From the NCBI RefSeq assembly GCF_000208865.1, contig NC_018387.1, positions 806,001 through 870,000 of the forward strand: 64,000 nucleotides of DNA. The letters run 5' to 3'. Origin of the DNA: Neospora caninum Liverpool. Taxonomy: Eukaryota; Apicomplexa; Conoidasida; Eucoccidiorida; Sarcocystidae. Of the stretch, positions 1-49,200 are shown in pieces (position 1 is the stretch's first letter; every line of letters starts with the position of its first letter). Position numbers and translations under genes: made by a program. The notes beneath the pieces were generated by a model. It ran no database searches. It was not told the DNA's origin and saw nothing but the letters and a program-made list of their open reading frames with translations.

Positions 1-1201
1 CAACGGGGCAGACGTACAGCCTTTTCTTGGGCCAGGTCACCTTGGAAACTGTGGCGGTTTCGTCGCTTCTTTTGTCAGTTCTGGAATGGCCTGCATGCGC
101 ATGGCCTGGGCGCATGCAAAACTCACGTCTCTGCAACGGAGGGGACTACAGACGACCAACGAAACAGAGAGAGTAGGAACTTTTTCTTCGCGTTTGCGTG
201 CTGGTAGGCGATCGACTGCAGGTTGTCTTGGTCTCGGACGGGACATTGGAATCTTTCTACCTGGGATTGCCTGTCGCTGCCCGTTCCCTGCGTACACTTG
301 GCCTCGCACGTTGTTATCGATTCTTCTCCTCCACGCCACAAGTTCTCGCTCTCTCTTCCACTTCCCTCTCTTTTTCGTCAGCCGACGTCGGTTCCTTTCC
401 TCCTGCTCTGCTCCCTCGAAGTGCTTTTTTGCACTCTGTTGTCTGGCGCCATGTGCTGACCACTTGACTTCAAACCGTGTACGCCGGGGCTCCGAATCAC
501 TTGCACTCTGCCTTCCACGTGACTGTTGGGGACTGTCCAGGAGGGCGGCTCTTACGGCCTCTCGCGCGTCACGCATATATCTCTGACAGTCCGTTGCGCG
601 TGGCTGTTCCGCCCCGAGAGGAGAGTCGTTCTCAGGATTTCCGCACCGAGAGGAGAGTCGTTCTCAGGATTTCCGCACCGAGAGGAGAGTCGTTATCAGG
701 GTTTCCGCCCCGAGAGGAGAGTCGCTCTCAGGATTTCCGCCCCGAGAGGAGAGTCGCTCGCAGGATTTCCGCACCGCCAGAGCCTGTTCCAGCGTGAAGG
801 ATCCTTTCCGGAACATAGAGCCCTGTCGCTTGCTGCCACGCCTTCTTCGTCCACGCTCAAACACTCAGAAGGCCCCTTTTCCCGAAAAAAAAGATTCTTC
901 AGGCCTCGACACTTCTTCCCGCGCAAGTTCCAATGGTTTTGATCGGGTGTCCATTGCCTCCTTTCGCGCGTCCACCGTTTTTCTCTGTATCGAGCTGTTC
1001 GCAGCCGCAGAAGGCATACATAGCGACCTGGAAACTCCAGAAGAGCCCGCGCCTATCCTTCTCAGAGACTCGAAACAACCTTGCGCTCCTCTCGTGCCTA
1101 CCCGATTCGCCGTCTTGGAGAAAAGTATCGATCACAACCGCCTGGCCCTTGCTTGGGGTGCCCACAAAACACGCGTCGGGTTCTGAGAGTGCCTGAGCAA
1201 G
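1..1201. other. 5' flank of the HBS1-like gene, no gene seen
   Basis: I see no convincing coding exon here. The short open frames on both strands overlap each other and lack protein-like composition. The stretch presumably holds the promoter and 5' UTR of the plus-strand GTPase gene starting at 1202. The one clear structure is a five-copy 32-bp tandem repeat at about 612-770, listed separately. Pyrimidine-rich tracts occur around 320-430. Confidence 0.6.
612..775. repeat. 32-bp tandem repeat, five copies
   Basis: The unit containing GAGAGGAGAGTCG recurs with the G of CGAGAGG at 616, 648, 680, 712 and 744, an exact 32-base period. Copies differ by a few substitutions (GTCGTT versus GTCGCT, CACCG versus CCCCG). 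The last copy decays near 770. It lies about 430 bp upstream of the GTPase start codon. A regulatory role is possible but is not shown by the sequence. Confidence 0.9.
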
Positions 1202-7006: not shown

Positions 7007-7223
7007 TTAAACTGAGGAGTCAAGTAGGTACAAACCGTAGTTCAACGCTGTAATATTTAGGTCAGTTAAGTAGTGTTCATTGATCTTCTGTGCCAACCTA
7101 TCTACAATCGGCGTCGGCTTCTTGATTATGGCGCCTACGTACTGCGAACACAGAGAAAAAATCAGCGGCTTCACCCCTGGAGAAAACCGGCGGAAAACGG
7201 GAGGGAAACAACCAATAGTCACG
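7007..7223 (-). other. Candidate 3' terminal exons of the giant gene
   Basis: 7143-7223 has a strong acceptor (GTGGTCTCTCTGCAG), 27 open codons beginning RDYWLFPSRF, and donor GTACGTAGG on a codon boundary. Downstream, one option is an acceptor ending AATATTACAG after a branch-point-like TACTTAACTGAC, giving Arg and TGA at 7042-7047. The other is acceptor GGCACAG giving 7007-7087, KINEHYLTDLNITALNYG and onward to TAA. A related pair of acceptors sits at about 27.6 kb. The choice cannot be made without transcripts. Confidence 0.45.
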
Positions 7224-10200
7224 CTGCAGAGAGACCACAGCCAGCCCAGACACAAAGCTGTGAGGTGCGAGATCAAAGGCAGTCGCGAGCAATAGGAACG
7301 GGTCTAACGCAGAGGCGCGCAAGGAATGCTTGGTCGCTTCCGTACTTGCTGTGACAAAAGGGCATTCCGAAGGCGTAAGCTGCCATCATTAACTATTAGG
7401 TAAGGGGTAGGTATTCTTCACCTGCGAATCCACCCTGAAACCATCACATTTCCGCTCACAGCAGCCCCCCCCCCCCCCAAAATAGCTAGCTGAAGACCTC
7501 TGCACGTACAAGCTGGAATGTGAGAAGGCACCACACACACATCGACTGCCATAATGACCCAGCTGGAGAGCCTGAAGAGCTACACAGCGCCGTATTTCAA
7601 CCCTGTCTCGCGATCTGCGACGCACTGCTCTCCTCTAAGATGGTCTAACTTGGGGGGCGAGTCATCATCTCGTACCGACTTTTCGCCAAGAGCATGGAAA
7701 TTGCTTGCGTGTCATGTAATTTCAACCCTCAAATTTCTTTGGAAACGGCGCTAGGTGCCTGCAGCGTGCACTCTGCAGCGTGAGATATGCGTAAGGGACA
7801 TCCGGTCTTCTCTGCGGTGGCTATGGGCCTGAGCGAGACAGCCGTGGATTCAAAGTCTCCCCAAGAATATCCAAAGCTGTGAGCGCATCTCGAAAATGTA
7901 TCCGTTGCAAGACGTTTGCCAGCCCCAGTTGCAGAATCCTTACCGACTGAGAACACCAGTTCCAGACACCCGTCACGGAACTAACATTTCCGAAGCAGCA
8001 GTGAACGACGGTGGATCCTTTCTCTATGCCGTGCTCCGCACCGTGTCAGTTTCAGGCACCAACTGCACACGGTCTGCCGCGAGGCCGTCGCCAGCCTTGA
8101 CTCCCAGATCAACAACACCTCTGAACGGACCGAGACTTACCATCTGCAATACAGACACACGCAAAGCCGTCCCTGAAAATGTAAAGAGAAGCACTTCGCG
8201 TTTGACAACCGCAGCACTTCCACTGCTCGTGCCGTCGCCACATGCGCAAGAAGCGAGCACCGCAGAGTATCTCGCAGTCGTCTGGGTGAAGCCACGCCAT
8301 TTCTCAGCGCCTACAAGCTGGAAGGGCATTTGAACAGACACACACGCTTTGCATCTTGGCGTAAACTGTTTGCCGAGCAATCTTGGATGGCGAAACAGAG
8401 TGAGACGACCGCAGCATCTCCGACCTGCTCGTCTGAGTCGGAACGAGCCACTGCAGCGGAGACTGGAATTCCAACGTTCACCCCAGACGTACTTCCTGTG
8501 GCCACGCACCACACCAGATTGAGGGACGTTTTCGGCCTCACGGAGAAGCGAATGATAAGACGCACTCCGAAACAACTGCTGCACCATGAGGAGACTCCCA
8601 CTGTATTCAGATGAGACTCACGAGCTGCGCCGAAATCGAGGCACACAGATTGTTCACATGGGACGACTATTTGATCCGTCTGGACTTTCTGAAAGGTCTC
8701 CATCGATGGGAAGTTCGTGAGAGTCTTCGGACTGATACAATGCGAATGACAGGGGCAGCAGGAGAGCTTAGAGAAGCGCGAGAGCTTACGAGCTGTGGAA
8801 GGGACGATGGACGCAAACAAACACACCGACAGAGCTCCAGGCCTTCTTCATGACTACGACATGTCGCCCCTCGCACGCGGCGGCGTTGCAAAGCCAAGCG
8901 CTACTTTCGAGAGAAATAGAAGGTTTGTGGCGGGTGCCGGTGGCAACAAAGAACAGAGAAGAATTACATCAGCCACCTGCCGACTGTTGTGACCACTCGA
9001 AATCACAAGTTTGCGTATTCTCCCTGACGCTTCTGCGGGGCTTCCGTAGAGTCGCAGCTTAAAAGGCCGCAGCGTACTTCCTGAGTTTTGTACCACAAAC
9101 AGGCGGGTGCGGGAGGGGTCAGCTGCTGCGAGAGCGATTTCTGAGGATGCATCAGCTGTAGGCAGATAATGTCGATGCTCACTTCCTGATGAAGCAGAAC
9201 AGCAGGATTGGGTACAAGCACAGAAGCCGTGAAACTGAAAAGCCACTCACGCGATCAACCAGAGAACACACTCTACGTCGCCGCTTCAAATATCAAGGAG
9301 TAACTACCTGCACAAAGCGATTTGGCCTTACCATCTAGAAGCGGTACAGGAAGATTCGACCAAGCATATATGAAGCCTTTCGACTGGGGTGAAAAACCCC
9401 AAGCAATACATAGCCAGCGATTCACCCCTGCGTCTGACGCAAAGCAATCCTAAAGCTGGTTCTCCATGCACCTACGCATCTACAACAATGACAGATCCTG
9501 GCACGCCGAGTCTATGAACCCTTTTTGACGGTGCGCAATGCAGAATCGCAAACCGGTGACTTACTTCCTGGTCCCAATGAGAGGAATGCCACCGGCCGAA
9601 GCCCAGGATTGCTATCGGGTTATCTGCTGAGATCCCTCGCGTCTTGGATCGTGAGGCCTCTCAGCCGCAATTCTGGAAACTACGGACAACGCTGGCAGCC
9701 ACTTAAAGTGCAAACCCTAGCCGTAACTGCGGCCTTGAGCCGACAGGACAACGGTTACCCGATGGCGAACCCGTCCCAATTGTGTCTACGTTTCTCAGCG
9801 ACACGCGGCTAGAGGGCTTACCGCCTGGTAAGTTGCGATACAAAATGAAGCTGCGACAGCTGTTGAGGCTTCATTTCATTTGCGCCTCCGTTGCAGCGAC
9901 GCTGTTGAACCGTTGAAAGCACCACCACCTCCACTTTCAATGTTCCTAACCCGTGCGAACTACAACTGCCCAAGTTTGTGGGTGAAAACGGTTCAGCATC
10001 GGTAACCTAGCATGGCATCGTACAGGCTTGGAGGAGTGGTTGAAATAGTAGAGTTACATCATGCAAATGAAGAGATTCCCCTGCCTGGGAAACGATGCAG
10101 AGCTAATAAAAAGTATTTCACAGTCGTCTGACACGGCAATTCCAATTGTCGTATGCTGCCCCTTTCCATGTTCCTTTTCCTAGTTTCTTGCGCTCCTGCA

Positions 10201-13200
10201 GAACGGCGCGAACTTCTTCAGAGCGAGGATAGTGCCGCTCCTCACTCCCGCCGTGAGCCCGCGGGCTCCATAACAACATAAGTGAGGCAAACAGTAGTGT
10301 GTTTATTAGCGCCGACTGCAGCCGCTATGGAATGAGAAACCTGGCACTAGTCTGGCAAGCGTGCCGTCAACAGCTTGTTCCACTATCCCCAACGCGTCGA
10401 GAAACATCGGACCTCTTCCTAGGCCACAGCGCTAATTTCGCACGAGAAACTCTGCGCTTGGTTGCCGCGGCCGTGTGCTTACACGATCGTTGCGTTAGCG
10501 TCTTGGTGTGGAGTGCAAAAACGCGACGTGTACTTGAGCAGAACTACACGAATTTGTTAGAGAGGCAACGTCCGATATTCTGTGCCTTACAGGCGGCATC
10601 TGGCGAGATTCGGGATATTCAGAGCCAGCACAAGCTCTCATGAAACTTAGATGTCTGGAAGCAGTACGCGCCACTGAAAGTGCTGCCAGAAACTGCGACA
10701 GCATGCTTGCGCTACGTTGACCAATATAGCCATCAGGAATCAGCTTGACAGTCCCGTTGACACTGCGCTGATAGCATAACCGGACCATCAAGCAGAGATA
10801 GGTTTCCATCGTACCGGCTGCAGAGAAGAAGCAGTCAAATTCACTGGGGCTCGCACTGTAGTAGCCTTTGGCGCTATGCAGACGTTTGTTACAGGCCGCT
10901 CACTACTCTCGCTTGGACTCAGTCCCACCTCGCCTGCCAGGGAGCCGCCTGCAGCTCGGCATCCCAAAATGCTTTGAGAGGGTGCGAGCGGTTCACCTGC
11001 ACCGCACCTGGCGCTCATGTTAACTACCGTGAGTGCGACTGCGGGGGACTTACCACCTGCACGACGGGGAGAGCAGGGTGCGGCATATCCATAGTCCTGA
11101 CAGCACTTGCGTTCTAGATGCGCAATTCAGTATTGCCCTGTCGTGCTGCAGTGGCGGGAATGCCGCCTTCAGTGGAGCGAGGAACTGATGATTCTTCAGC
11201 AGCTTCCAAAGCATTTCTTGCACGCGTGCAGACGAAACATACCTTCTGGGGCGGTTCATGCATTGGACAGCAATAGTCCAACTGAAATCACACGAGCGGA
11301 CAGCACAGGTGTCTCACTGCGCGCTGCGAGTCTCGTGCCTCTTGGCGAGACGACCACTGCACTGTCTATACAATGCACTGCTACTATGGGGCAGCTGGCA
11401 TCGTGCCACACTGGTCGTTATGGGCCCGCAGATCTCCATATGTGTACATTCTTCACGAGGTTCCAGCAGGCGGGTCCGAGCGCATGCACCCTTTTGTCTG
11501 TTCGTGCGGCCCCCGCTAAGACAGTCAGTTGGTGCCACCGGAGTGACTCGACAGAGCTAGCCCGAGGCGAAAGCATGCCAGTCACTGGCGTCCTCACGGT
11601 CTGTAGCGTGGTTTCGGTTCCACAGAAAACGGTACGACGACGCCTACCGAACCCCGTCTTAGCCAGATACCGCCTCGCCCACAGAGCTGAACTGCGCGTG
11701 GAAACGCACACTGCAACGCTTCTCGTAGCCAGGTTGCTGCCCCAGGCCTTGGACCATTCCACGACAGGCCACTAGAGGAGCACAAAGAAATGAGCCTACT
11801 GCCTGGCGCATGTTTTGATCCATGGCAGATAACCGGATTACAGCCCCTCTCGCGGTCGAGTGCAGCGTATCCAACACAGCTACACACCGCACAGAGATGA
11901 GGAAGCAAGAGCTAAGTACCTTAATGTGGGCACGGCTCGACTGGCAACGGTCAAACGTGTGAAGCGACGGGGACAAAGGGTAACTTACGCCCTGTTGTGC
12001 ATCCCAGAACGCGCACCAAAATCGTTACACCATGAGACAACGATAACGTTTAAAAGCTCAGGCACCATCCCTCAGTGAAGGCAGGAGCATCATCCTGATT
12101 CCGGCTGCAGAAGCTTGCGGTTTTACACTCGCCCATCGGATCACCTACGTTCTGGAAAGGAGCCAACGTGCGAATCGAGAAGCGGCTGAGGAGCGTGTCT
12201 GCAGTCGCTTGGGTGCCCACATCACATTTCGAACACCTGACATGACCGAGATAGAGTGTGCACCTGCTGCCACAGGATATATGGCTCGTGAAAGAAAGAA
12301 AGCAGCAATGCAGCGTGACAATCTTGGCCCAAACTTAACGGACACTGCTCAGTTCCTCAAATAGGAAGAATTGCGTTGTGCAACCGGTCCTCTCGAAGGC
12401 GACACAAAATAGACGCCATCGGTATTGTCGTTAGCAAATCGTATATGAAGCACCACGCAATGTTTTGAGTTGGCGAAAGCTAGCTTCTATTTTTTTTCAT
12501 TCTCCCATAGGGCGTTTCCCAGAGGCTCCGCAGAACAAATGCGACGGCAGCCGAAATGGAAGGACACAATCACCTGCTGCCCACGATAGGAAGCTTCCCC
12601 TCGGAACCAGTGACCAGTTTTCGAGCCCTTTGTTGGTCTGAACGCTGTATCAGGTGTCATCTACGAGACCAGATCATGCCACTGTGACTGTCGCCATATC
12701 CAGCAAACCGCAGTCACAGATCCTACATCCTGGCAGCGAAAGGAGCGACACGCTCGACGACATTCTGAATGCATGCGTTGTTGACCACTCGAAACGTTTT
12801 CAATTGCCGTTGCACGAAGCGAAAGCTTTTGAAGTGTTTCTTATCTCCCGCAGCTCCCACGTGTGTGCTCGTTGCTTTTCAGGTTCGAAGCCGCCCGGCC
12901 AAGCAATCAGGAGACGCCCATCAGAAACCAAATCGCTTCTCAGTTTCGTTACACTGCGTAGGTCCGACTGCGGACCGGGAATGACGACTGCGCCAGAACC
13001 TACCTTCTGGAGGGAGAGGGCCCCCCCAAAAAAACCAAAGGGGTCAAATGCGAAGCGTTGGAGTGTCACTGCAGGGCTTGTGCACCCATGGTAAAGGGTT
13101 GAAGCTTAACAGAAGTTGTTCTAGACTGCCGTGAGGGCATCCGAAACGCTCTCGCAGAAGCCCGTATAGCAAGCCTAATCCCGCGGGCTCAAACCTCGGC

Positions 13201-16200
13201 ACACTGTATCGCTCCTCAAAACAGTTCGCGGGACCTCCACCGATTGCAAGTGGATGTTGGGTGAAGAGTGCATGCGTACCTCCTGCGATTCAAGGATGTG
13301 TTCGTCACAACAGGAACAAGCAGAAACAGCATAATTCATCTGCTATTGCAATGTCTCCCGTTGAAATAGAGGCAGCCGCAACCTTTACGACTACAAGAAG
13401 CTACCATCGTCTTCTCAGGCGGATGTAGAATAAAATTGCAAGCTCAAAGGAAGAGTGGGAGAGACACATTGGCGAGCTGGCTTGAAGGCGGGAAACCGGT
13501 GGGCTTCCCCGGCAAAGCTCCTCGTACCGCCCCGCTACTACATTGGCGCTGCGTTCGAACTCCGGAAGATACAACGGTTTCCAGCTCCAGTAACTCACAT
13601 ACTGTGAAGAGGATGCAAAGAGCGAAAGACCCGCGTGACAAGCTGGCCAGCGCAAAATACTGGCAAGGAAGACGACAATTCATCAACCGCTCACAGCCCG
13701 GCTGCTCACTCCGGAAACACGAGCCGTCCCGCCTGTTGGGTTTGCATGCAAACTTGTGAGCAAACACTGATGCAGTTCCAGTTCGTACTTCCTAAACACA
13801 TTTCGTAGCAGTAGGTCCGCACACACAGCAGCGTTGTTGAGACAACAAGCAGAGAGGTAATGGGTCGTTTGGCACGAAAGACTTTCACGGTTTGTGCCCG
13901 CAGGCACGCAATGCCCCAAAAGACTCTCCTGATATTTCTACGATCTGAGGGCCAATACCTCTCATGTGCCGAACCAAGGTAGACTGTCCTGAACCGAACG
14001 TTGACAAAACATGCCACTAAAAAAACTGGCAGACACGGTGAGCCGAGGTGCGTGTCGAACGACCGGCTCTCGGTTCGCCTCTCAAACGGAGGCTCCCAAC
14101 ATGCTACGAGAAGACGGAGAATAACTGCTTGGTGGACAGCAGCCATGTGACGTGAAAGCATCCTGAAATCGCGATCACTCACGCAGCCGGTCGGTACTGA
14201 GGAATGCAAACGAGTTACTGAACCTCCTCAGCAAAAACGTGCCTCTACGTGCCACAATGAACAAGGCCGCAATGAAGAGTCTCGGCAGCTAGCGGCCGGT
14301 GTGTCGGAGGCGCGCCGCTGGCAGAAAGTCACACACGCTGCTGAATCTATGTCTGTATATTCCTACTGGGGAAAGCAACAAGCCTCCAACGAAAACCCTG
14401 AGGCTATGGTAAGCAATAGAGCGGGCGCAGACGGATGCTTACTCGCTGACGACACAGACGCGCAGATGTCAACGAGGCGCGTGTTGCATGTTGATGCGGA
14501 TTCACACCTCGAGAAGCACCAAAGTCGTGTCTGCGGCAAACGCTCAGTGGATGTTTCCTGCTGCACAACGTACCAGCTGGATTTCCGTGTGCCAGGCGGA
14601 GCGATAAATGTTCGCGGTTTGCTCTTTATCCTTGCTTGCAAATCCACAGAACTGTTGTTCCCCGTGCGGCCCCGTCACTGGCGACTTCTGTCTTGCACCA
14701 CCCACAGGAGAGTGGCTCTCGAATGAATCGGTTGGACATTCCGAATCAACAGACACCTGCCAGGGCTCCTCTCGCCGACGTGCAAGGAAACTCACAACCT
14801 GCGCAGCGTGACGCAAGAAATATGCGCGGCCACGCCTGCTATCAGCTCTGTGAGAAAGCGTACGCACGGCACTGCGTTTAGACTTTGTTTTGTATGGTAA
14901 TCGAACCAATTTTCCGTTTTAGTCGCCGAAAGCAAATGCTCACTCCAACGAATAATGACGCCAGCACTGCACCTAACGACACGGATTTATCGTCTTCCAC
15001 TTTTCAGCACATGGCCACGAAAGGCCGCCCACTGCGCCCTTGGTCACGGATGCTTGTATCAAATTCTGGACACCTGCATGTGCCTTTCACCGTCCTTAAG
15101 CATCCGTTAGGCAGGACAGACCGACCTGAGCGGCTGTCGTAGAGGCATTTGATGAGGTGGGTTCCGCTGCTAGCCGTAGCGCGACCTCGCTCATTTCTCA
15201 TACGGAGGCGGAAGGCCATAGAGCTTACCACCTGTCGTCAGAAGGACGCGTTAGGTACCTCACTCTCATGAACGCAATAACAGCAACCCGGTGGTTTGGC
15301 TCCGCAATGTGTGATGAGGACTCTCCGGGCAACCAAATGTTCCCAGTCGTGGCGCAGAGTGCAGCATTGTAAGGACCGCAACCTGGGACAAACGGCCGCG
15401 AAGATCCGTTTGTTTTTGTCCTTGTAGCTTAGGTGTTGCGTGAACGCTAAGGGAAAACATTCTCCTGTGTTTGAATTGCCCGTTACAGACCCATACACAA
15501 ATCACCGTGAGGTAAGGGGAGTCCCCGGCGGCCCTCCCCCAACTCAAGTTGCCTTTCTCTCGGCTCTGGCACCACGGCTTGTGTCCTGCGAAGTTCCTCC
15601 TTTCAGAAACGGCAAGTGTCTTCGAAGAAAGCAGCTCGACCAATGCCGAGACCGCCTCAGCGTCTTCTGGTACAAGAGCGGAAGTAGAGTGTCGTAGAAG
15701 CGAGAGTTCGGGGCACTTACCTCCTGAAGGTTCCAACGGCCGTTCGCGCAGTAGTTGAGCCGTTAGCGGCAACGTAAAGGGAAGCCACTTCCGTGCGGTG
15801 CCCGTTCATGGCCAAAGTGATTTGTACCGTGCATCCACCGTGAGTGCCGCTTAAGCGAGTCCACAAATTTCGCCGTGTCAAAATCACATCAAACAACTGA
15901 AAATCCTATGGATCCTTCTCCTGTGATACCGTGGCTGTCTGACGGCGCCGTCAGCGCGAGCTTCCACAAAAACCCTTACGTCTCCAGCAGCCTGCACACA
16001 GAAGCCCGACAACAAAGTTCAGTGCCGCGTGAAGCGCCATCCGACAGCTGAAGCGCATGATACGGTGCAGAAACAGTCAGAGACGCTGAAGGGTTCGCTA
16101 GATCCTCAGAAATGGAAGTTTTCCTCTACATTGTGCGGCAAAAGACAACGGCCGTGCATACTCCGACGAAACGCGAGCAACAATGTTGCAGATGGCAGTC

Positions 16201-19200
16201 ATAGAATGAGACACTGTGGTGCTGGATTATCAGGCGCATTCCTGTCACGGTGTGCTGCATGTGGTGCAACCAGCGTCACTGGTCCTGCAAAAAAACTGTG
16301 TGGCAGCTACAGCCGATCCAAAACGTGAGAACCGCCGTTGGTACTTTGGAGCTGTGGCCCGGGTTTTTTTAGGGAGAATCAAATGCTTGTGTCTGCCTAC
16401 CTCCTGAAGAACGATTCCACATGGAACGGAACTGTGTTTCGAATGGAGCATGTGGCTCGTGGACACACCGCTGTTCCACGACCTCCAGCGATGCCTGAAG
16501 GTTGCCCATAGCAAAACTGAAGCTACGCCCATCTTTTCCGCCAGGCATTGTGGTACACAGACGTACAGTCTACACGTAGATGCCCGGCAACACAGGCGCA
16601 GTAATAAATCACGTCGGAAAGCTGCTTAAATCCGAGGGCACTGCGAAAAAGAGGTCGCCGATTCTGCAGGGCGCGCGGTGTGGCCAGTGTGTCACGTACT
16701 CCCTAATAACGCAAGGAAATCGCATCCGCATGCGCCCGTTGATGCTGTCGAGGCCTCGTTGATTGACAGAGAGAGGCCGGTACAGCGAAAGGGAGACAGT
16801 ATGGCGCAGGGCGTCAAGTTCCACACAATGCGGAGCATTCTACGGTACGGCAAAAACCGTCGACGAAGGCCACGCAACGTGTGTTTTCGTTTGCTGTGTA
16901 ACTGGGAAATATCCACTAAGAAATTGATGATAGATCCTTCATCGGAGTGACGGGTGTACCCCTGAATCATCTGTGAGAAGGTCCACTTCAGCTCAACACG
17001 TGGCGCGACTTCCTAAACTATGAGTCTCAGACGCTTGACGCTCTAATGCCGTCTCGTTGCCCAACTCACCGCCTTCGAAGCAAGCGACAGATCTCAGGCG
17101 TTGCATGTGCATACCGAGAGGAGGCAGACCGTGCGTGAGGATGTTCGTCATCCTGTCGAACTTGGCCGGGATAGATAGTCTAACCGAAAACGGGCATGCT
17201 ACGCACTCGTGAGTACAGGCGTGGCACCCAAATGTGTCTACTAAATTCTCGCCTTACAACCTGGACGTAAGGAAGGCACACGGACGGAGCACAGGGAGAA
17301 GACTCTTAGGGTTGTTCCTTGTTACAGCGGAAAGTGTACGAACTGTGAGGTAGATGGATAATGCTTACCATCTGAGTTAACCACACATCACCGACTAGGT
17401 ACTTTTGTAAACCGAATTCCCACAACAGCGCTACTAAAGGACACGTGTGCCTCTTCGAATGCTTGACTGCAGTTACAGCGCAAACCATTCACGTACGGCC
17501 TGGATAATAATAGACATACCGCCTTTGACAAGCAGCGTTGCACCTGCGGCCGCAAAAATTTGCTCGCATCTCCCTGCTGCAATTCCACCAGTTCTGGCAC
17601 ACAGCTAGAATCATCGAAGGCGTACCAACTGAAGTGCGAGAGGCGTATCGCATGATATTCGCTGCTGTGAACGCCTTAGCAGTGTCCACAACAGGCGACC
17701 TGAACATCCACAAAAGGGGCGCGAGTGTTCTGCTGAGGAATCTTCGCACACTCTTCGATAGGACGACTCACGTTCTGAACACAACGAGGTGTTTCATCCA
17801 GACAGTACCGAAGCATTTGCAGTTTCAGTAAATCAGCGGAACGTCGAAGGTGCATGATGAGCCTCTCATGGAAATCGCGGCGAACCAACCACTGTACGTG
17901 CGGAGCGAAGTGCAAACAATGGCCAGCAACCAGGAGAGCGAGTCCTGGTTCAACTCCAGACTCCGGCACACGCAAGCACCTCTGGGCTGCCAACTCAGGC
18001 ACCCGACCCTGCAACGTCCGTCGCGAGCGCAGGATTGGAGATGGTGTCGCCAACATCCTTACGTCCTGCGTCACACGTCACGGGAGATAGCAGGTTCACC
18101 ATGCACCGTGCGACATGCTAGGCACTGATACTGACGCATCGAACAGACCAGCACGGTTTTCTTGGGTAACGTACAGCCTGAGGGCAGAGACGAAACGGCA
18201 ACAGCGGCCCCGCGTGGCAAACTCCGCAGAGAGAGGAGCTTTCCGTCACGATGATATCAGCCGCCAACACCGAGACTGCAAGACCCCAATCGCCACCCCT
18301 CCCCTTTTCAGATTCCGAGACCCGTCCAGCAACTCCTGCAGGCCCAGAGTATCCCTATGTGCTCGAAGCTTTGTTTTGCCTTACCACCTGGGAAGCAAAC
18401 GAAGAAGAATCGCACAAAACGGGAACGAAATGAGCGAAGCATGTGCCGAAGATTGCTCTCGCATGCTCATAACATGGTCGCCTATCCTGGTCCTTGGTTA
18501 AGCCAGAAGGGAGCGCAAGCATCTAAGTGTGACTGGCAATTGAATAGGTTTTTTCAGCTACAGTAGGATATTGCATCTTTCTTACTCGCTGTCGCAATTT
18601 GAATGAACACATCATACGCACAGATGACATCAGACGACAGAGGAGAAAACTCGTTCACGCGTTTCCATGTGAGACGCGACTGCAGCTTACTCGCTGAGCA
18701 TGACAGTGACACATTCTCGGAGGGTCTAGAGCGTCAAAACTTCACGGCCTGATCGATATCTCGAAATGATAGCTGACAGGGGGGATCCAGTAGCGGTAGA
18801 CTTGAACATGTATACTTACAATCTGGTCCAACGCAACACCACCAGAAGTGAAAAACCGCCATGTGGTGGCAACCGCCTCCACTGGCCTTCATTTGTCAAG
18901 CCACAGCACCGGCTAAGTTATCGCTGTACACGCTTCTTGACATGAGGTATGTTCTGTGGAAAGAGAGCATTGCCATGTAGGTATGAGTAAGCGACAGAGA
19001 TGGCAGAGGTTGATCTTACCATCTACGGAAGAAGAAGAAGCAATATGCGAGCGTCTAGGCTCGAGCCCCGTTGTTGTCGCCGGGGAGACAAATATGGTCA
19101 CCAGCAGCAGCAGCAATGACTTCAGCACCCAGATAAAAACCATTCGTGGCTACACCTCATGCGACCCTCGCCTCGCCACAAACGGATTCTTGTGGTGAGT

Positions 19201-37200: not shown

Positions 37201-40200
37201 AGCGTACTCTCTGCTTCAACTGAAGGAGAAACGAATTCCATCACTCCCTCTATCAGTGCTACACATACGCACTCCAGTGTTTTCCAAATGCTAGTTCTAA
37301 GCTTCAAACAGGCATGCAGAGCGCATGCAACCCTAGACATCGGGGCTTCTCAACCTGAAAGCTCACGGTCTCTTGATGACGCTGCATACAGCCACAGTGG
37401 TATAACACGTGATCTCCATTGAGGGTTTGGAGCGCTTTGACCCGTTGACACCCACGTCGGGAAGCGACATCAGTCAGCATTTTGGAGAAACGTGTGTGAA
37501 CATAGGATCGATATTCGCGTAGACAAGAGAACTATTTCGCTGAACTATTAATGGCCATGATTAGCCACGATATTCTCGGAAAGTCATTGTTTGACTACTC
37601 GCGGTCGCGCCAAGGATGCTTTTTCTTACATCCTGAACCATGTTCAACGCCGACGTGTGTCGTGGGCACTTGCACGCCGCCTTGCAGGAAAGATCGTCTA
37701 GGCAGCTGGATTACGTGACATGACAACATCCGGACAAACAAAGTGACAGACCGGCCTCAACACAGCAGCTAGAGCGCGGGTGGAAGTCTCAAGAGTGTTC
37801 TCGGTGACAGCCACGGGTTCAGGGTCATCGGCGAAACACCTCCGAATCTCGCTGTGTCTTACTTTCTGGAAAACAGTGGACGCCGGCGAGTTTCCTTTCC
37901 GCCCGTTTCACAGAGCATCTTTTCATGGAACTGATTCTATGTGCGTGTGGCTTCCACGACCGGTTGTACGACAGTTCAAGTGAAGGTACTTTTTCTATCC
38001 GTGACGCAAAAACTTACAGCAGCCATCATCTCTTCCGGCACCATCTGAAAGCCCGGCACGGCGCGTATGTGCCGCTGTCATACGTGACACTGTTGGTAAC
38101 TTACGGCCTGCGCATAGGAAGCAAGCACAATACCGGCGTCGCTCGCTGCGCTTCCTTTAGCCAGACGACGTTCGTCAGTGTAAGAAATAACGAATGCGCA
38201 ACGGCTACCTGCGTGAGTATACAGTGCTCACTCTGGTATTTCACGAGAATCAAGATGTTTTCTCTCTTGAGTGCACGCTGGAACACACAGGTTAAGCAAG
38301 AAGTACGCTTAAGATGTGCCCTCTGGTGGAAGCAAGCGTGTCCGAACGGTCAAAAGCATGAAGCGTACCTCCTGTTCAAGAAGCAACCATGGAACAGCGT
38401 ATCACAATCGGTGGCATGACATATTTGTCGTGATCTCTCCAATCCACCATCCGACTACAGAGCGGCTGGTACTATCATCAAGACATCGGTCAGCATGCAT
38501 GTGTGTGTCCAAGAGCTGATATAGGATAATGAGAAGCAAGGGGGGGCAGCGAAGCTGGAATGCACTTGCAGAGACCCGACTAGCTGACGGCACACTGCAT
38601 GCTGGATTCGCCAAGCAGCTCACCCACTGAGAAGCAACAAGAGAGACAGTTGGCAGGTACCGGTCCGCCAGTGCTACGTCGGAGATTCTGCATCTTCATA
38701 ATGACATCCGAGAACGCCATTCGAAGCATCCACGGAAGCCACGGTCTACTCGAAGAGCCCCTCTTCCCCAGTGTACTTGAGGCCCGACGATTGTCCCATA
38801 AGTGCTGGCGTCGCGACTTGCGGAGCGAGCTATCCTGTGACTGCTTTCCTGTGACTGCTAGCTCCCGTGATTCTATGAAATGGAAAGCTGGCAGTGAATC
38901 TCGCGTACAGCGGTACCCAGGCTCATAACGGTATCAACTGATTTGTCCCTCCTGGGACAGGTGCCGTCCTAGGCGAGTGCTGTGTTTGACGTGAAACCAC
39001 AACGGTTGCACAGCGAACGCTGCAGAGTCGACCATGGGCGTGACACGCCTTCTTTCGTTTCCCTGGAAGGACAGTTGATGACCTTACGGCCTGCGATGGT
39101 CAAAATGGAATGCACTCGACGTGAAAATTCTTGTGGCTTCCTAGATTCCTTGCCATCAGATGGAAAGCAAGCCAAAGCTATGGCCGGAGGGGAGAAAAGG
39201 GGCGCACAGCAAAAATAAAAGCAACATCATATCAGCAACGGCCCCTCGCGAGGTTGACGCAAAAGAGCGACCAGCGAGAAAGGTGAGCAGCGCCAAAGAG
39301 AAGGTGCGATGCGTGAACCGCTGACCACACTTACCGTCTGTGCCCGCCAGCATAACGGTCCGAAGCTCCGCCACTCACTTGGTGCACGCGGTTTTCATCG
39401 AGCCTATGTTATCAGCCACAGAACACATTCAGATGACTGAGCCGCAAACAGGTGGCTGCCGGAAGGAAACAGCGAAGCGGAAATTGAGGTGCGTTTGTTT
39501 CGGGGCAGCTGCGAAAGTTCGCATCATTCGCATGATTTGCTGACAGTATTCTGAGGCAGCGAAACAGAAAATTAGGAAGACGAGACGGGCAGCTCGCCAT
39601 CAAGGATGCGCCAGGGGAGTAGGGTTGGGGACCAGAAACATCGAAATACTGTCGTCCGCAGCAAACACACCTTTCCAAACCCAGGGAAGGACGTGTCGTT
39701 TTCGGTGTCGTGATGGGGTGTCCCTTAGAGGCAACGTACCACCTGCAGCGGCCGTTGGTTTAGTCTCGATCGGCAGCATGATGCAGGCTCATGCCATTCT
39801 CCCAAATACAGGTGACATTCAATTAGCTAGTCAGCGCGCGAACACGTGCCGAACCGTTCAGAAAGCAAGCCCTAGAGAGCCGCTGCCACCACAGTCACAG
39901 CATGTTGCGCACAGTAACACTCTGATCGCTACTGAACAGCATATGTCAAAGTCGGTCCACCTTCTCGTTCACGTCCGCTAAGAATCCGTGAGCCATCTGC
40001 ACGACCAGGCCATGCACTGCGAATATTCTGCCTTTCTTTGGATCCAGCGGCTCAGCGGAGAGCTGAAACCTTGCACCGACTGCTCCCCTTTCATAGCCCG
40101 GGGTTACTCACAAGCTGCCATAGCACGATTCGTAATCGCCGGCGGGTGTGTATACCTTGCTAACCCCAAACAACCTCGACGCTGGCATGAGCTTCAGATG

Positions 40201-43200
40201 AGCTGCAGCTATGGTCATCGAGTGATATCAGCTAGTAGTGCATTGGTCCAAGCCTTACTTGCTGAGGAAGTCACCATCACATAGGCGTGCGGTACTAGAC
40301 CGTTTTAACCAGAACCGGAAACTCTCCGCACCTTCTACAACCTGTCGGCAAAAGGGACGAAATGCTCCCTTCTCAGACACGGCACAAGATATTCTGGTTT
40401 CCGACACGTTTGCAGGCCATAAAAAACGCCAACCTTAATGAAAACTACTCAACACATAAGAAGGCTTATGTACAGCTTGCTAGCTCACGCATCAGGTTGC
40501 AGTGATTGGCAACTGAGATAGCTATGTTGCGAAGCCTAGCTACTGAAGCGGCCCAGGTAATTGCAGCTACGTCCTATGTACATGACACAAATTGATCCTT
40601 ACCTTCTGAAAATAGATTGAGAGTCAGTCATTCCACGGCAAGGTACTCGCATGGAAGTGTGCACGAACATAGTGATTGCTGTGGATCCCACCGCTGAAGG
40701 CGAGAGTCGTCATTCGCGCTGAGATTCGTTCCTGCCCTGTGGCTGCATCATAATGTCAGAACTACTGTCCGCAGCACTCCCTCAGCACAGGCCAAGCCCT
40801 CTTTGAGCCTTGCGGCATGACACAGCAGCCTTACCCCCTGACGCAAGATCATCGAAGCACAGCACCATGCTGCTCAGGATGTCTATGACACGGGGTGGTT
40901 TCACTCACCAAAACACCCCTTCCTTTCAGTGTGGCGCGTCCTGCTACCTATCCCCGGGCGCCAAGCCGTGTTCCACTGTTGCTTTGCCGTCGTGGGCGTA
41001 GAATCTTTTGATAAGTCGTCGCTCTTGCAACCAGTTAGCCCGAGGCTTACAATCTGGCACCAGCACAGTTACGCCGCGTAAATTAATATTATTATAATGA
41101 AGTAAATATGTTTCTGGATCTAAAGGTGCTTTGAAACTTGTAAACTCTATATAAAAAGTTGGACACGTCTGGTAACATGAGAAATACTGGCACTGTTCGC
41201 GTCTGGAAGCGCCTTTGATTACCCAGCTACGGCGGCCGCGGCGTGCACACTCACCACCTGAGTCAACCACGCGAAGGAGATCCTTATTAGATGATGCGCC
41301 TGGCTCCTTGCGGCGATTCAAAAGATGTGCGAAACACTCGAAAATCATCATTTCCCACTGCGGTCGCACTTGCTGCCCCACGCTCATTTTTCACACTGCG
41401 GCCACCTACACTTGTGCCCCGCCCTCGCAAAATCACAGATTTGAAGCCCGTTTCCCAGTGTTCCACACTTACTGCCTGAACAAGTACGAGCACGCGGCAT
41501 GGCCCCAGATGGCAGATGTGATTCACGCTTCCGTTTTGGCCGAAACTCTGCCGTTTACCGGACTACCTCAGCGATTGCAAAACAGGATAACGACCCATGT
41601 AGCTTGCCGCTCTCCACTCAGAACTAGACTCGAAGCAGCTAGCAGCTAGGAAGCAACACGAATCAATTCAAACTGGCCTGCACCCTAGGCAGCCGAAAAC
41701 TTCAGAGGGAGTCCAGACTCACTCCCTGCGCGAGACAACGAAGAAGAGCTGGGCCCACAGCTGTGCATATGCTCTCGCAGGACGTGTGGGTGTCTGTATG
41801 AGCCATGTATTGTTTCACTAGCAAAGCAATCAGTTCCCTTGGTGCACCTCAAAAGACGCAGCAGCGCTCAATTCCTAAAGAGGCTAATTGTGAAATGAGG
41901 TCTTGCGCAGGAACGTGTTTACTTAGAACGCTGTCGTTGTTAGCTACGCCCGTACGACAGGATATGGCCAACCAACTGAATGGCAGATCCACGCTATGCT
42001 TACAACCTGTTAAGTTAACGAAGATCAAAATCAACTGTATTGCTCGAAGCAGTTTGCTTCGTATCGGGGAGATGGTTGCACAGCCGTTTCGAAGTGTATA
42101 CTGCTCGACATGGAACTCCATCATCGGATGGCAGTCTTACGATCTGACGTTAGGGAAGCAGGTGCACAAGCAACTTCCCAAATGTCCACATACGGTGGAA
42201 CGAGATACCACGGAACTGTTGATCCACACAAAGCGTTGCTTCTCCACCGTCATGCTCTAGCCTCTCAAGTGAAAGCTGGAAGTCGGACAACGGGCTCAGG
42301 ATCGGCTGGGGCTGTCTCACGGGAAACGAACTAAGTCTGCACAAAGTGTGCAGCGTTAGCCAAGGAGGGAGAAAATTTAGCGTCAACGCAGCGAAGAGAG
42401 GAGCTACCTGCCGTCTCGGGCAGCTACGCTATTGTTGAACTGGAAATCGATGCCGGCGACACGCCTTATTCCCCGTGTTCCGTGGAGCGCGGGGAAAGTG
42501 CCGATCACACAGCGCTCCTCCGGGCGATTGAAGCCACCAGCCGGTGAGACAGCGATCTGGGAGCACTGGTGATCCAAGACTCACGGGTCATCGCTGCTAC
42601 AAAGCATTCTTAACTTCGGTTCCTACTTCTATGGACTACCAAGGACCGAGTCCAGACACCAAAAACACTTACCACCTAAAGGGAACCATGTCACCCGAAA
42701 ATCCGAAAGGCAGAAACGACTGGATGGACTTCTGCTTTCGCCGGTGTCTCCAAGATTTTCCACTTTCTGCTGCAACCAGTGCCAGGAGCTTGTTTCCCTA
42801 CATTGCAGCTGCACAGGTTCTGAATCAAGAAAAGATCACGATGCTGTAACAAGGTCGTAAGAACGACAGGGAGACTCCGGCAGCATGTGTGTACCTTGCG
42901 AGACCGCAATTTCAGTCAGCTAGCAGGCTTCAGTACCACTATTTTGACCCGACTGCTTACACGAGCTCGGCGAAAAGATAAGCACTGGTGTACTGCGTGT
43001 AAGGCATCCATGCTGAGCCAGAAAACCCACACCCGCCGGGAAAAGGGCCCGTCCACACGCAGCCGCGAAGATGGATGTTCATCTTTCGAAAGCGGCCTTC
43101 ATACGCGCCTGCACTGCATAATGGCCGTTGCATCTTCATCACCCATACTTCCACGTGCTCTCTCTTTCACGGCTTCTTTCGTTCCGGCTAAAGACACGCT

Positions 43201-46200
43201 TCTGTCGGCTTCCCATGTTACCTCGCTGGGCTTGCAGAGAGTGAGAGCATGACTTACCAGCTGCGAGAGACACAACAAACACAATCCAGTGACAAACGTA
43301 CATGTCATTAATCGCATTGCACTGATGGCCGCCAGATCGTCCTCCCGGCTTGGCGCCGGAAGAAGCTTCAAGAAGTGAGAGACATGCAAACTCACTGTGG
43401 ATTCCGCCCTGTCGACTGCAAGTCTCAACCACGCGCACTGAGAAAATCGCACTGCTGAGGAACTGTACGCCCCTGCCCATGCGTCTCGCGCTTCAGCTGT
43501 GGGGGAGAAGAATGCAGCCTCCCGAGGAAGAGAGAAAAGGTATTCATTACGTACACGTTGGGCCTGTAGAACAAGTTTCCATAGTCGTCAGCATCGGGAG
43601 TGGTATGACACAGTCTGAACACATCCCAGCGAAAAGAGACCCCGACAATCCCAAGAAGCGGGAAGGCGTACCAAAGGTGACGTTAACCGGAGGCGGGCTC
43701 TGGGAGAGCCAGTTGAACGCCCTTCCCCCACGCAGTGCCGGAACCGTCTGTGATGACGCTTTCAAGGTTCGTTTCCAAGCAACTACCGTTCGCCCCCTTT
43801 TCTTAGCACGCCATGTCCCTGCTCGCTCCTTACCAGCTGAGTAAACCGTCGGAACAAGGAGAGTTCATGAATCCCGCTGTGCCTCCACGTTCCTTCCCGT
43901 GGCCATCTGACTAGAAATCGAGATTAGATGCATTCTTCGTAGCCCTGAAGTCTACACACCATGGGATTTCACGTATCCTCTGGGAAAGGCCCACCCTTTG
44001 GACTAGCCACAAGCATTCTGCCTAGTCATGCCTTACCGTCTGAGATAATTTTTCGATTGGGAGCAGCATCAAGTCACTTCTGGAGGGTATTCCGAAAGCC
44101 GTCAATGGCATTCGACGTGAGTTCTGCGTGCAGCACGCGGCGCGTTGAGACCAGCTAGCCTTCCGTCCAATAGCTTTAGGGACCCGTCTCATTGAAAACT
44201 CAACGCCACAAGTCTCGTCCAACGGGGCTTGTTCAAACCCGCGACGGCAGCCGAAATCAATTTGTTCGAGACAAGAAATCTTCCCGACACCTGAGAGCGT
44301 TGTGCAGGTTCCGATCATCGTACCAGCTGAATCGGTGAGTGTGCACAACGGTGGACGGAGAGAGCGTCTTGTGGAGAGTGCTATTTGTTCTCTATATCCA
44401 ATTTCGCTGTGGTGTTTACAGTGCCGAGACCAGCTTGTTTTTTCGAGTCGTTTACAACAAGTGGACGCGCGCCAGACGGAAGATACAGTGGTTTCCCACC
44501 GGAGTCCGTTCCCTGGGTATCCAATTCAGTGCTCTGCATTGGGCATTGAAACTTACCAACAGTGTTCAACCCTGTACTGCTTAGCTCTTCCGAAGGTATG
44601 AGTAGCCTCTCCAGCGCAGTGTGATGCCGTGCCTTCTCTCAACGCCTAATAATGAAGACAGAAGACTCACTTGTCCCATAAGGTTGAACTGTGGACGTCA
44701 ACAGACACACAAGCAGAAGCAACCGAAAACGCTTGGGAATGAACGGCATCAATGGTGGGAGGCGGACGGCGGTTTTGTGACCAAATCTCTGCTGTTTTGC
44801 AGTAGCTGATGGGCTCGACGAACTGGAATAATCTACGAAAAGGTAACGTTTAGACTCACAAACTGTTGTCGCAGGAACATCGCTCCGTCGTCAGGTGAAA
44901 GCACAGATCTTTAGAAGGCCCGCCACACACGGATGGTGGCCCCTCACAAAACTCCAAGGGGAGAACTGCATGCCAAATCCGCGTGACTACAGCGTGTCTA
45001 AGACGGCAAAGTGAAGGGATCAACGACGCTAGTTGTGCTCACCACCTGGTTTCAGTCAGGAGAGGGAAATCGGTGTGTGCCCTTGATGTCTGACTGTCCA
45101 AAAGAGGTGTTCCCTCGCTGGCGCGGACTAGCACATCGCTGTGGCGTCCAGCGGCTTCGGTCACCGCAGTGAATTCTGCTGTGCTAGGAGAGGCCACTCA
45201 CCGGCGGGTACACCTGAAACAGAGTGGCACAATCGGAATCCGGTATACAATATCGATCTGCTAATCTGCGTTAGCTTGGCAGCAGCCGGAACGTCAAGAC
45301 CCAACCACCGGCAAAGCCAAAAAGATGGACGCACGCCAGTTTCGCCGCTCAACTTTCGGCATTTCTGTGAGCGTTCAAACGCGGCTGCTGCAAGAATCAG
45401 CTCCTGTCAGGCCTCTCTGTCGGTCGGCGCCGTTGGTTGCTTCTCTATCCTGCACGTCCAAGCGGGCTCTGAGTTAGAGGGTCGTCCGCAGCCTCATGCT
45501 AAGCGTGGACCAGTCAGTCTGACGGCCACACCCCGCAGGATCGGGACTTCTTGAGATGGCAAGCTGCAATTCTCTCCCCCACGTAGAGACAGCACCACCA
45601 TGAGGGTACGCCTTCCACAAACAGGTTTGAATACGGGGCGCCGGCTTGGACTAGGCTCGGAGATGTCTCGGGTCCCGCTGAATTTCGTAGTGGAGAACAA
45701 ACGCGCTACGAGACAGAGCGGGACCAAGCATCGGACACGGAGCCAGACACCGTGGAGACCACGGCTTTCGCTAAACTTACCACCTGACCATTCCGGTGGA
45801 ATTAGACTCTCGTTGCTACCGTAAGGCACTCTGGATATCAAGCCGAAAGGCGCGGTGCGTCTACAGGGCTTGCTCTGGCGAGTCCCCATTGTATAATGTA
45901 GCCTAACTCACGGGCTGAACAGCAGCGAAACGCAGTCACGAGCACGCTTTTCATTTGACGTACTCCGCGGGCGAAAGCGAGTTACAGAATTCACAACCAA
46001 CTCGGCACCACTCGGTCTGCGAAAGGAGAGAAACCGCCAGTGTCTCTACAGCTTCATCTGCATCATCTTTGTCTCTGGTAGTCGACATGCAGCGCGTACG
46101 AAAAGCCGTTTGTGCGCACACTCCGCAGCGTCGTCCACGGCTTGGGTTGCTGGGAAAGATTGCCTCTGCTCTGCCACCTTCTCCAAATTCTCTTTAACCA

Positions 46201-49200
46201 TCAAGGAAGCCAGCACGAGTCGGGAGGACCTACCAACTAAATACAACCACAGAAACAATCTGCAAGGCGAAAGGGATCAGTTCCCGACAATACACACAGC
46301 CGATGAAACAGCATGTTGGGTACCTAACGTGACAGAAATCGCTCTTGCATCCCGTGAATCGGAACAAGGAAATGAGAGTCCCGCAGCAGAAACCGAACCG
46401 CATGCGAAGAGGGGACTACCCGGTTGCAGCTGGGTATCCACGGCAAAACTTACCAACTGAAGTTTTCGCCCAGGAAGGAACGTTCCATTTCGTAGCTCAT
46501 GCATGCATTACAAACGAATTCATTCCACATACTTCGGCCTAGTAAAGCGTGGCATGCACAGAAGGTGCGTGCGGCTCTACTTGAATTCTATGAACTGTAG
46601 TCTGGGTGGTGTCATTGTCTTCCAGTTCCACTACTCACCAGCTACGAAGCGGGGAAAGCAGCATCAAAGCGGAGTACAAACATGAGTGTGTACGGATGTC
46701 GAAGCATTGTTCGCCACTCGAGAAGCTCTCTCACCTTCAGCTGGACTGCAGGAAGTGAGATTCCTTACCAACTGGTGAGCGGACAAAATGGAATGCTCGC
46801 TGATATCACGACTGCCTATAGGGACGCACTGAAAATGGCTCGTCTGGGCGCCGCATTCTAACTTCACGCAAGATCTTCCGCAAATTCGGCTGTGTGCAGC
46901 AGGCTGAAGCTCACAGCGACGATGCCAAGTTTCAGCGCTTGGGCCTTACGAATTGCCAAGGGGAGACAAAACAGCACAAACCCCATTGTAAGCAGAAACC
47001 CACGACCACTAGCGAATGTACGCGGCCGTCAAGCGCGAACCGACCCGGTGGCGGGCCGTGGCTAGTGGAAGTGCTGGACTGACTGATGTATGTATCAGAG
47101 CCATCCACTGCAGCCCCTTAGCACTCACCAACTGGATAATATGCCACAGGGGAGAGTGAAGCGACGAAAGCGAAGCTGCATGTTTGCTGCTCACTGAAGG
47201 GCAGAAAAAGACTTTGTCACTTTCTTCGGTACACCTAAAGCAGGTTCCATTGCTGGGCCCCTCTGACAAGGCAGCTTCAATGAAATTGCTCGTTACTGCT
47301 GTACAACTCAAATTGCACAACAGTAGAGCCAATCTACAGGCTGTAGCGAGGGCAATGACTCCATTCTGGCTCCTTGCGTGGAAGACGCACTTGCTGCATG
47401 AAGCGGCGCGAAGATGGGGCGAGCTACAGATGGATGTTTACGTAACTCTCTCACATCAACGAGTCCAGTCAGGCTGTATACTGCAATTGGAGCGATGTCA
47501 CAACTCCGAGGCGCTCGTTACTCCTGACGAAAGTGGGCAAGGCGAGACGTGGCGGCAGCCGCTGAGCTTCGATGTGAGTTCGCGGAAAGCGGCGTGTCTT
47601 CTGCTGGGCACTGACATGGTCGGGCCCTCACGTCCTTGTGTGCTTCCTGCAGACACGACCAGCCGTATAACGGATGCAATGGAGGCACTCCGCTTCCCAC
47701 AAGCAGCTGGCTGCCACAGTGCGCTGACCCAGCCTTAATTACCGTGGTTCGCTGGCGCGATGCTGCTGCGCGGCAAGCACAGGTGTCCTGTGAACACTGC
47801 TGCGGTCTCAAATTGTCGTCGTGCGGCTCAAGGAAAAACAGAGGGGTGCAGAAACTCACAAACTGTGCATGGGAGGACGCGTTTAACTTCTCACATGTGA
47901 TCAATGACTGGCCACCCAGTCGCACGGCGCAGCTGGCAGGGGCTTGTGGCATCATCACTGTAGTGAAGACAACTGCAACGTGGTCGAACTGAGCTACAAT
48001 CCTTTCGTACGGAACCCTGTTTACTTACCGCTTGCCGAAGCGTCTGGAAATGTGCGATTCAAAAACCACGAGCAGATGTGCGGACAGTGAAGCATCCACC
48101 TCAAGAGTTCTGATGTGTGTCACCAATGAATGCAGAAGCCGAAAGAGCGTCGAGAAATGCCAGCTTTTCTCAGGTAGTGTTTCAGTGCAAAGCCGCGCTG
48201 CTTCATGAAGACTACGGCACTTTCTTCAGGCTACTCGGCACTCCCCAATGTCTGTCCAGAGAGGGTGATGCATCCTACGAGAACCTACCATGACCTTCTC
48301 CGGAACAACAGGCGGCACCACCTTACGGATTTTTGGACGGGAGACACAAAATCAGGAGCTAGTACTTGCAAAACCAAAAATGCAAAGGCGGTGCCTAGGC
48401 ACATCGCTAGTCGCCAGTGCACCACAACCATGTAAGATGACTCGAAAGATCGTGGCGTACTGAAGAGCAGAAAGAATCGATAGTGCTGTATGGCCAGCCG
48501 TCGAAGTACCGCTACAGTCCTCGATGGTTTAATAGAGAAAACTGAGATCAAAATGGATGGAAGCCTGTTGTGCCTCAGACGGCTGAATACTTTAGGATGC
48601 TAGAGCGAAGACCACGATAACTCCTTCACGACAGCTGCGCTGTGAATGGCTGCTCCTCCACCTCCACACAGGCTTCCGTCTCCACCAACGCATCGAGCTG
48701 GTCTAGTGTGATGGTGTGTAAGTCACGAACGTGGAACAGCAGCTGTGTTTCCAGAGCACGGCGGACGCTTAAACTGACAAACGTATCAAAGTGGCTATCA
48801 TTTTGACGTTCGCTCGCTTTCGGTCCCCCCCGCCCCCCGCCCCGTAACGCAGCTGTCCCTATAGGCAACTGTTTCCGTTTCTGTAGTGCTCAACTAGGGC
48901 ACTGGCGCTCCGTCTTTCCAGGTATGCTCACAGGCGTAGGTTCCTCCTGCGAGACAGAGCATGCAAGTGGAGATGCACAAAGGTGTTCGTTCGACGAATA
49001 CTGGCACGAGTCTGAGCCGTGGCCGTAACCGGTGTTTTCAGCTTCTGCCGCGGAAGCCACCTCGTCCATCTGCAGCACGATCGTTCTGGAAACTTGGTCT
49101 ACTTCCTCGCAGACGTTGAGGTTACTGTGCTGAGCCCCCGGTCAAGATGAGTCGCTCGTGCATAGCCCGCCCTCACCTCCTCCGGTTCCTGCATGAAACA

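Follow-up and report, generated by a model that had tools for sequence, protein, structure and literature searches.

The described genes closest in kind to the locus reported here are the micro-exon genes (MEGs) of schistosomes and the bicycle and megacycle genes of aphids (all papers are cited here from excerpts). The MEGs of Schistosoma mansoni have exons of 3-81 bp and encode secreted proteins with an N-terminal signal peptide (PMC10526429). Aphid bicycle genes contain about 17 exons on average, with many small internal exons that share phase 2, and the aphid megacycle gene spreads about 2,000 amino acids over more than 100 microexons (PMC9168663). Our subject is a stretch of 64,000 nucleotides from Neospora caninum Liverpool (contig NC_018387.1, positions 806,001 to 870,000 of the forward strand), called the window in what follows. 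Its minus strand carries about 150 units, each made up of a splice acceptor, three bases and a splice donor, and we consider it likely that these are single-codon, phase-0 exons of one N. caninum gene. Judged from the sequence, this predicted gene most likely spans about 46 kb and includes a part of roughly 150 residues in which most codons form separate phase-0 exons.

As in schistosome MEGs, the coding sequence would lie mostly in many tiny, frame-preserving exons between long introns, all of them predicted exons in our case. Exon length varies in MEGs, whereas here about 150 consecutive candidates are all exactly 3 nt long, the organism is an apicomplexan, and the predicted segments are membrane-like. 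The likeness is one of architecture only; we do not file the gene as a MEG, and general searches gave no relative. The bicycle and megacycle genes share with the locus many small internal exons in one common phase. Unlike the megacycle gene, which has many codons per exon, the Neospora gene would have one codon in each, and the phase-2 internal exons that mark bicycle genes are not found; the triplets are free of stops as phase-0 codons.

At the ratchet points of Drosophila, juxtaposed acceptors and donors in a long transcribed stretch are used for stepwise removal (PMC8605326). Their hallmark is an AG followed directly by GT, for which the count here is 0 (2 with the loosest donor), and they leave no nucleotide behind, whereas the Neospora units would leave three each. 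The 1-nt exon of Arabidopsis APC11 (PMC4674806) and the 3-bp exon of Drosophila hth (PMC7392893) indicate that the spliceosome is able to handle exons as short as 1-3 nt, but both are single cases and not arrays. An earlier note on this DNA, made from the sequence alone, had described 3-nt exons as known only from rare isolated cases, which is too narrow, since the MEGs hold them too. Its further statement that a gene built mostly from such exons is undescribed agrees with the open-access literature, which leaves out most subscription papers and which yielded no account of 3-nt exon arrays for Neospora or Toxoplasma. In one or other of the gene sets tabulated in a comparison of gene finders that uses Toxoplasma genes, the shortest exon is 3 and no gene exceeds 47 exons (PMC3511556). 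One study went through over 7,000 gene models of N. caninum by hand, and its excerpt makes no mention of the feature (PMC4395442).

The array and two of its candidate exons are located as follows.

6459..47862, minus strand: array of 3-nt exon candidates in phase 0, with 157 sites at a score of at least 5 and no stop codon
30350..30352, minus strand: example of a 3-nt exon candidate, CTG, with tract CTCTTTTCAG and donor GTGAG
22547..22549, minus strand: example of a 3-nt exon candidate, CTG, with tract TTCTTTTCAG and donor GTAAG

The exact spacing of the units is seen in an unscored test, in which the minus strand of positions 7346-48043 was scanned for the pattern YAG-Nk-GTRAG at every k between 0 and 44. 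At k = 3 the pattern occurs 106 times, against 0-9 times at each other k, and YAG-N3-GTRAG is found only 4 times on the plus strand of the same region and 3 times on the minus strand elsewhere in the window. The motif TTACNNNCTG has 76 matches in the window (both strands), compared with a mean of 6.07 and a largest value of 12 in 100 dinucleotide shuffles. All but three of the 76 have the claimed orientation, and 69 of those 73 lie within 7346-48043. Over the genome, the same motif is found 3,283 times in 57.5 Mb (14 contigs, both strands), or about 3.7 times per 64 kb. This total is below that of the reversed-pattern control (4,424), and the excess is therefore local and not genome-wide. Inside the array, other exon sizes that are multiples of three (38 over 22 sizes) were not above non-multiples (79 over 44).

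A weight matrix was trained on the 106 strict sites; because this makes it partly circular within the region, the claim rests on the unscored counts. Within 7346-48043 it finds 153 sites at a score of at least 5 and 132 at a score of at least 8, where 7.6 and 3.0 are expected from 200 kb of the N. caninum genome, read on both strands and including 40 kb that flank the window. From 48043 down to 6200 the numbers rise to 157 and 135, one of the latter with a GC donor. About eight of the array sites at a score of at least 5 should be chance matches, and a few weak true ones should have been missed. Shuffles, other spacings, the opposite strand and the 200 kb of genome together rule out chance or composition as the source of the units.

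These counts bear on several statements of the earlier note. Its figure of about 158 single-codon exons comes near to ours, its observation that TTACNNNCTG occurs dozens of times, where simple base odds predict two or three, is borne out, and the four sites that it singled out are present, at 10817, 22549, 28197 and 30352. It had also named a similar motif density in ordinary genomic DNA as a result that would tell against it, and neither the genome-wide count nor the 200-kb expectation does so. The range that it gave, 7346..48043, encloses 153 of the 157 sites; at its low end the array extends slightly further, with units at 7141, 6666 and 6461, and 48043 is the start of a 15-nt candidate and not of a 3-nt one.

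Tests independent of how the units were selected agree that they look like splice sites. Sites chosen without regard to their tracts, in the region extended to 6200, were compared over the 14 bases upstream. At 107 sites with k = 3, pyrimidines make up 0.626 and T 0.364 of these bases; for the remaining 1,276 YAGs of the region the values are 0.502 and 0.246, and 0 of 20,000 random samples reached this pyrimidine enrichment. Information content is 0.075 bits at -20 to -1, 0.035 at -40 to -21 and about 0.02 elsewhere, so that beyond the acceptor and donor it is near background within about 40 bases. The donor variants GTGAG and GTACG and TAG acceptors are also present in the array. The closest neighbours among the 107 strict sites lie 102 bp apart, so that no gap is below 100 bp, whereas random placement gave a mean of 23.7 such gaps and never fewer than 9 in 20,000 trials. 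For the 134 GT-donor sites at a score of at least 8, the implied introns measure 99-990 nt with a median of 236. The units thus keep a spacing floor of about 99 nt, as a minimum intron length would give; binding sites need not show one.

The locus is not a lone case. The same genome holds three further arrays, on contigs 9, 10 and 14, besides that of the window on contig 3, and the number of arrays (at least four) is a lower bound. A diagnostic primer for Neospora has three matches at the start of contig 3.

Contig 9, 2849.7-2866.1 kb: cluster seen with four k = 3 patterns, among the matches listed
Contig 10, 1599.8-1618.0 kb: cluster that stands out in one k = 3 pattern, with 5 among the matches listed, and has 1 in another
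Contig 14, at least 1770.9-1793.3 kb: cluster seen with four k = 3 patterns

Stretches of 25 kb, 25 kb and 10 kb, respectively, were fetched from the three contigs for confirmation. Same-strand counts at k = 3 were 20 on contig 9 (at most 3 at other spacings), 27 on contig 10 (at most 4) and 17 on contig 14 (at most 3). In the same order, the stretches contain 36, 39 and 22 sites at a score of at least 5, with 0 stops, and the smallest gaps between sites at a score of at least 8 are 119, 128 and 149. Genome-wide counts of the other k = 3 patterns and their reversed controls were 113/110, 179/116, 30/9, 10/14, 53/28 and 47/18; at other spacings they were 80/101 for k = 6 and 10/19 for k = 4. 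The k = 6 and k = 4 versions have no match in the window, and one k = 6 match lies within the contig 10 array. Two of the k = 3 patterns show no excess over the reversed control (3,283/4,424 and 113/110), and single-codon exons are therefore no general habit of the genome.

The contig 10 array leads to a last exon that carries a hydrophobic segment. At this place (contig 10:1599083-1598712, minus), the public protein found for the gene is one of 108 residues (N. caninum Liverpool, 'conserved hypothetical protein' / 'Transmembrane protein'); it starts at an internal Met of the last exon and includes no part of the array. The contig 9 gene has a signal-peptide-like first exon that ends in phase 2, as in the window gene, and possibly a hydrophobic exon next. 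Paralogy of these two genes was considered and rejected for want of similarity in the first exons. Smaller groups were also seen among the matches listed. On contig 11 (816605-817120, minus), three identical CAG-ATG-GTAAG units lie exactly 250 bp apart and have the look of a tandem repeat with a 3-nt exon-like unit in it; in this they differ from the arrays, which are non-repetitive. Pairs of acceptor-triplet-donor matches 1-2 kb apart on contig 7 (2806190-2807633, minus) and contig 4 (1036863-1038750, plus) are possible further small arrays.

If the units are exons, their triplets should behave as codons. The 153 triplets at a score of at least 5 within 7346-48043 include 0 stops. In the four arrays together, 222 triplets at a score of at least 8 also include none, where 7.6 would be expected from strand trinucleotides (P 4e-4) and 5.7 from the base positions of the triplets themselves (P 3e-3). 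These 222 triplets comprise 48 different codons. Retention of the introns would be no easy alternative, since 120 of 133 introns would then bring in an in-frame stop. The order of the triplets was also informative. Read 5' to 3', they give a long hydrophobic stretch first and then a mixed, charged, leucine- and alanine-rich part.

41051..47131, minus strand: hydrophobic, membrane-helix-like part of the array, consecutive triplets read as residues

The hydrophobic peak of the 153-residue string (mean 3.08 over 19 residues) is reached in 20 of 50,000 residue shuffles, and that of a stricter 140-residue string is matched in 21 of 50,000. None of the 222 triplets ends in TA and CAG occurs once, perhaps an avoidance of competing splice sites.

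On the minus strand, the start codon of the predicted gene would lie at 53,056 and its end near 6,200. The candidate exons outside the array, and the neighbouring genes, are listed below.

52662..53056, minus strand: predicted first coding exon, with ATG at 53056, a signal-peptide-like start, an acidic middle, an end in phase 2 and a GTGAGC donor
51948..52045, minus strand: predicted second exon, continuing the frame of exon 1; hydrophobic, membrane-helix-like; donor GTAAGC
50800..50814, minus strand: 15-nt exon candidate of 5 codons, phase 0
48932..48946, minus strand: 15-nt exon candidate, phase 0
48029..48043, minus strand: 15-nt exon candidate, phase 0, with a donor score of 10.7; upper limit of the array as first reported
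47632..47646, minus strand: 15-nt exon candidate, phase 0
6215..6226, minus strand: tentative terminal coding exon of three codons and a stop, with acceptor TTTTTTTGTTCAG; one of six candidates
1187-2044, plus strand: neighbour, first long open reading frame (ORF) of a gene; the ORF holds an elongation-factor-type GTPase domain
58394-59020, plus strand: neighbour, ORF with an EMC6-family fragment

The N-terminus of predicted exon 1 is hydrophobic, as judged by eye, and the exon has no Pfam family. With its signal-peptide-like start and hydrophobic, membrane-helix-like segments, the likely product suggests a protein of the secretory pathway or of a membrane. The last strong triplet of the array is at 6461. 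On the plus strand, the A/T skew stays positive through each 4-kb step between 4 and 56 kb, and is slightly so again at 60-64 kb, which would fit one minus-strand transcription unit. At 47.4-51.9 kb, 15 nt is the commonest exon size, with 4 candidates against at most 2 for any other (sizes 0-69, at the cut-offs used). The four phase-0 candidates of this size directly upstream of the array hint at a second preferred tiny exon size, and 12 and 15 nt are weak hints of other short exon sizes there. The candidate at 50800..50814 may alternatively form the last part of a 50-nt exon (50849-50800), which would take the frame from phase 1 to phase 0.

Searches for relatives and repeats gave little. One relative came out of all protein searches, the 108-residue protein that is the contig 10 gene's own last exon. 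No Rfam family reached its gathering score in the window. In a repeat search (seed 12, minimum 20), no shared sequence exceeded 36 nt, and many of the families were the splice motif itself. A dispersed or tandem repeat was accordingly rejected as the source of the units, there being no long shared sequence and the flanks being near background.

Several results weigh against single-codon exons in one gene, or against parts of this model. The joined triplet string has no relative in Pfam, NCBIfam or PDB. Two large protein searches of a database including N. caninum found no homologue of the joined sequence; they scored the 7,998 and 7,997 candidates that share most words and have 0.55-1.75 times the query length, so that an orthologue in Toxoplasma may have escaped if it is long or very short. 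The stop-codon test, though significant, is not overwhelming; among the 163 sites at a score of at least 4 one stop appears, between scores 4 and 5. The part that follows the hydrophobic stretch has no more helical periodicity than shuffles have (941 and 1,839 of 5,000 reach it). To these we add the training of the weight matrix on the region itself and the absence of a genome-wide excess over reversed controls in the two k = 3 patterns named above. The model is provisional at exon 1, at the change of frame between exon 2 and the array, and at the terminal exon. On contig 9, no donor was found for the second exon, and the first exons of the contig 9 and window genes have a common layout without sequence similarity.

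The tests of spacing, tract, distance, stops and triplet order all failed to break what the earlier note had proposed, a single-codon exon array in one minus-strand gene. One variant leaves the exons standing and divides the array between two or more adjacent genes. Its odds overlap with those of the single gene, and we give it a small but appreciable chance. A 31-bp sequence of the low end (7080-7110) that recurs mid-array at 27608-27638 speaks for such a division, but units of the same strand, spacing and phase carry on past 27.6 kb on either side, and by eye no stop-bearing terminal exon was recognised there. The two copies of this sequence (minus strand) are 87% alike, with irregular similarity beyond; as a guess, they are perhaps a scattered repeat or an organelle-derived fragment. 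An origin of the gene halves by tandem duplication, suggested by the same pair, was set aside: the copy in the middle has an interruption and resembles a separate repeated fragment. Alternatively, the units could be recursive splice sites in one very long intron of a gene that makes its protein independently of them, with triplets that are by-products or are removed again and do not code for protein. The acceptors and donors are almost back to back, like ratchet points, and the region is about 41 kb long. Yet zero-length units are not enriched (YAG-GTRAG is found 0 times in the region, or 2 times with the loosest donor), the spacing is fixed at one codon, no stop occurs in 222 triplets, and a membrane-like stretch emerges from their order. 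The second triplet base is also not A-rich (0.23), contrary to a pure donor consensus. We regard recursive sites as improbable.

Two further explanations dispense with splicing or with selected exons. As a short gapped motif that is strongly enriched locally, plus-strand TTAC-N3-CTG might be a repeated DNA- or RNA-binding site with no tie to splicing. Against this, the motif amounts to exactly an acceptor and a donor, in one orientation in 73 of 76 matches, with pyrimidine enrichment on the acceptor side and information that drops towards background beyond. The presence of GTGAG and GTACG donors and TAG acceptors and the hard 102-bp minimum distance speak against it as well, which makes a binding site very improbable. 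The many recurrences on one strand could instead be the decayed copies of a repeat whose ancestor carried one CAG-N3-GTAAG. Here, the shortness of the shared sequences (none longer than 36 nt, many families being the motif itself), the almost complete lack of shared information in the flanks past the splice signals, and the diversity of the triplets, with 48 codons in the 222 sites of four arrays, leave this the least probable explanation of all.

Returning to the single-codon exons, how might they be spliced? An exon of 3 nt would be too short for the acceptor machinery and U1 together. Since acceptor and donor could hardly be bound together at this length, the introns are probably removed one after another, stepwise and in order. 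In this process, each acceptor would first be joined to the growing upstream exon, and the donor three bases on would act only afterwards. Each ligation would present the next donor, in a manner like recursive (ratchet-point) splicing but with one codon left per step. As every unit is one phase-0 codon, its use or skipping would add or drop one residue without a frame shift. With frame-neutral units of this kind, further 3-nt exons would be easy to add to an array, and optional units could give many protein variants. It is possible, though we put it forward tentatively, that at least four Neospora genes together contain more than 200 single-codon exons, spliced one residue per step, with very many variants by optional residues.

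One conceivable origin of the arrays is the insertion of introns between all codons of an older gene. At the usual AG-rich insertion sites, nearly every codon would then end in A followed by G. Only 0.23 of the 106 strict sites have A as their second triplet base. Growth by new 3-nt exons is the easier route. We infer that such frame-neutral exons would have arisen inside long introns.

The locus also suggests that standard annotation can miss genes of this kind: for the contig 10 gene, the protein search brought up only the 108-residue fragment from its last exon. N. caninum, a parasite of cattle, can be grown in the laboratory, and four loci in such an organism open the question to a direct long-read RNA test. 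If true, the window gene would be an extreme of split genes, with about 150 successive one-codon exons, in a single-celled parasite. It would bear on the smallest exon that the spliceosome can define, on the recognition of the exon as a unit, and on the growth of intron-rich genes.

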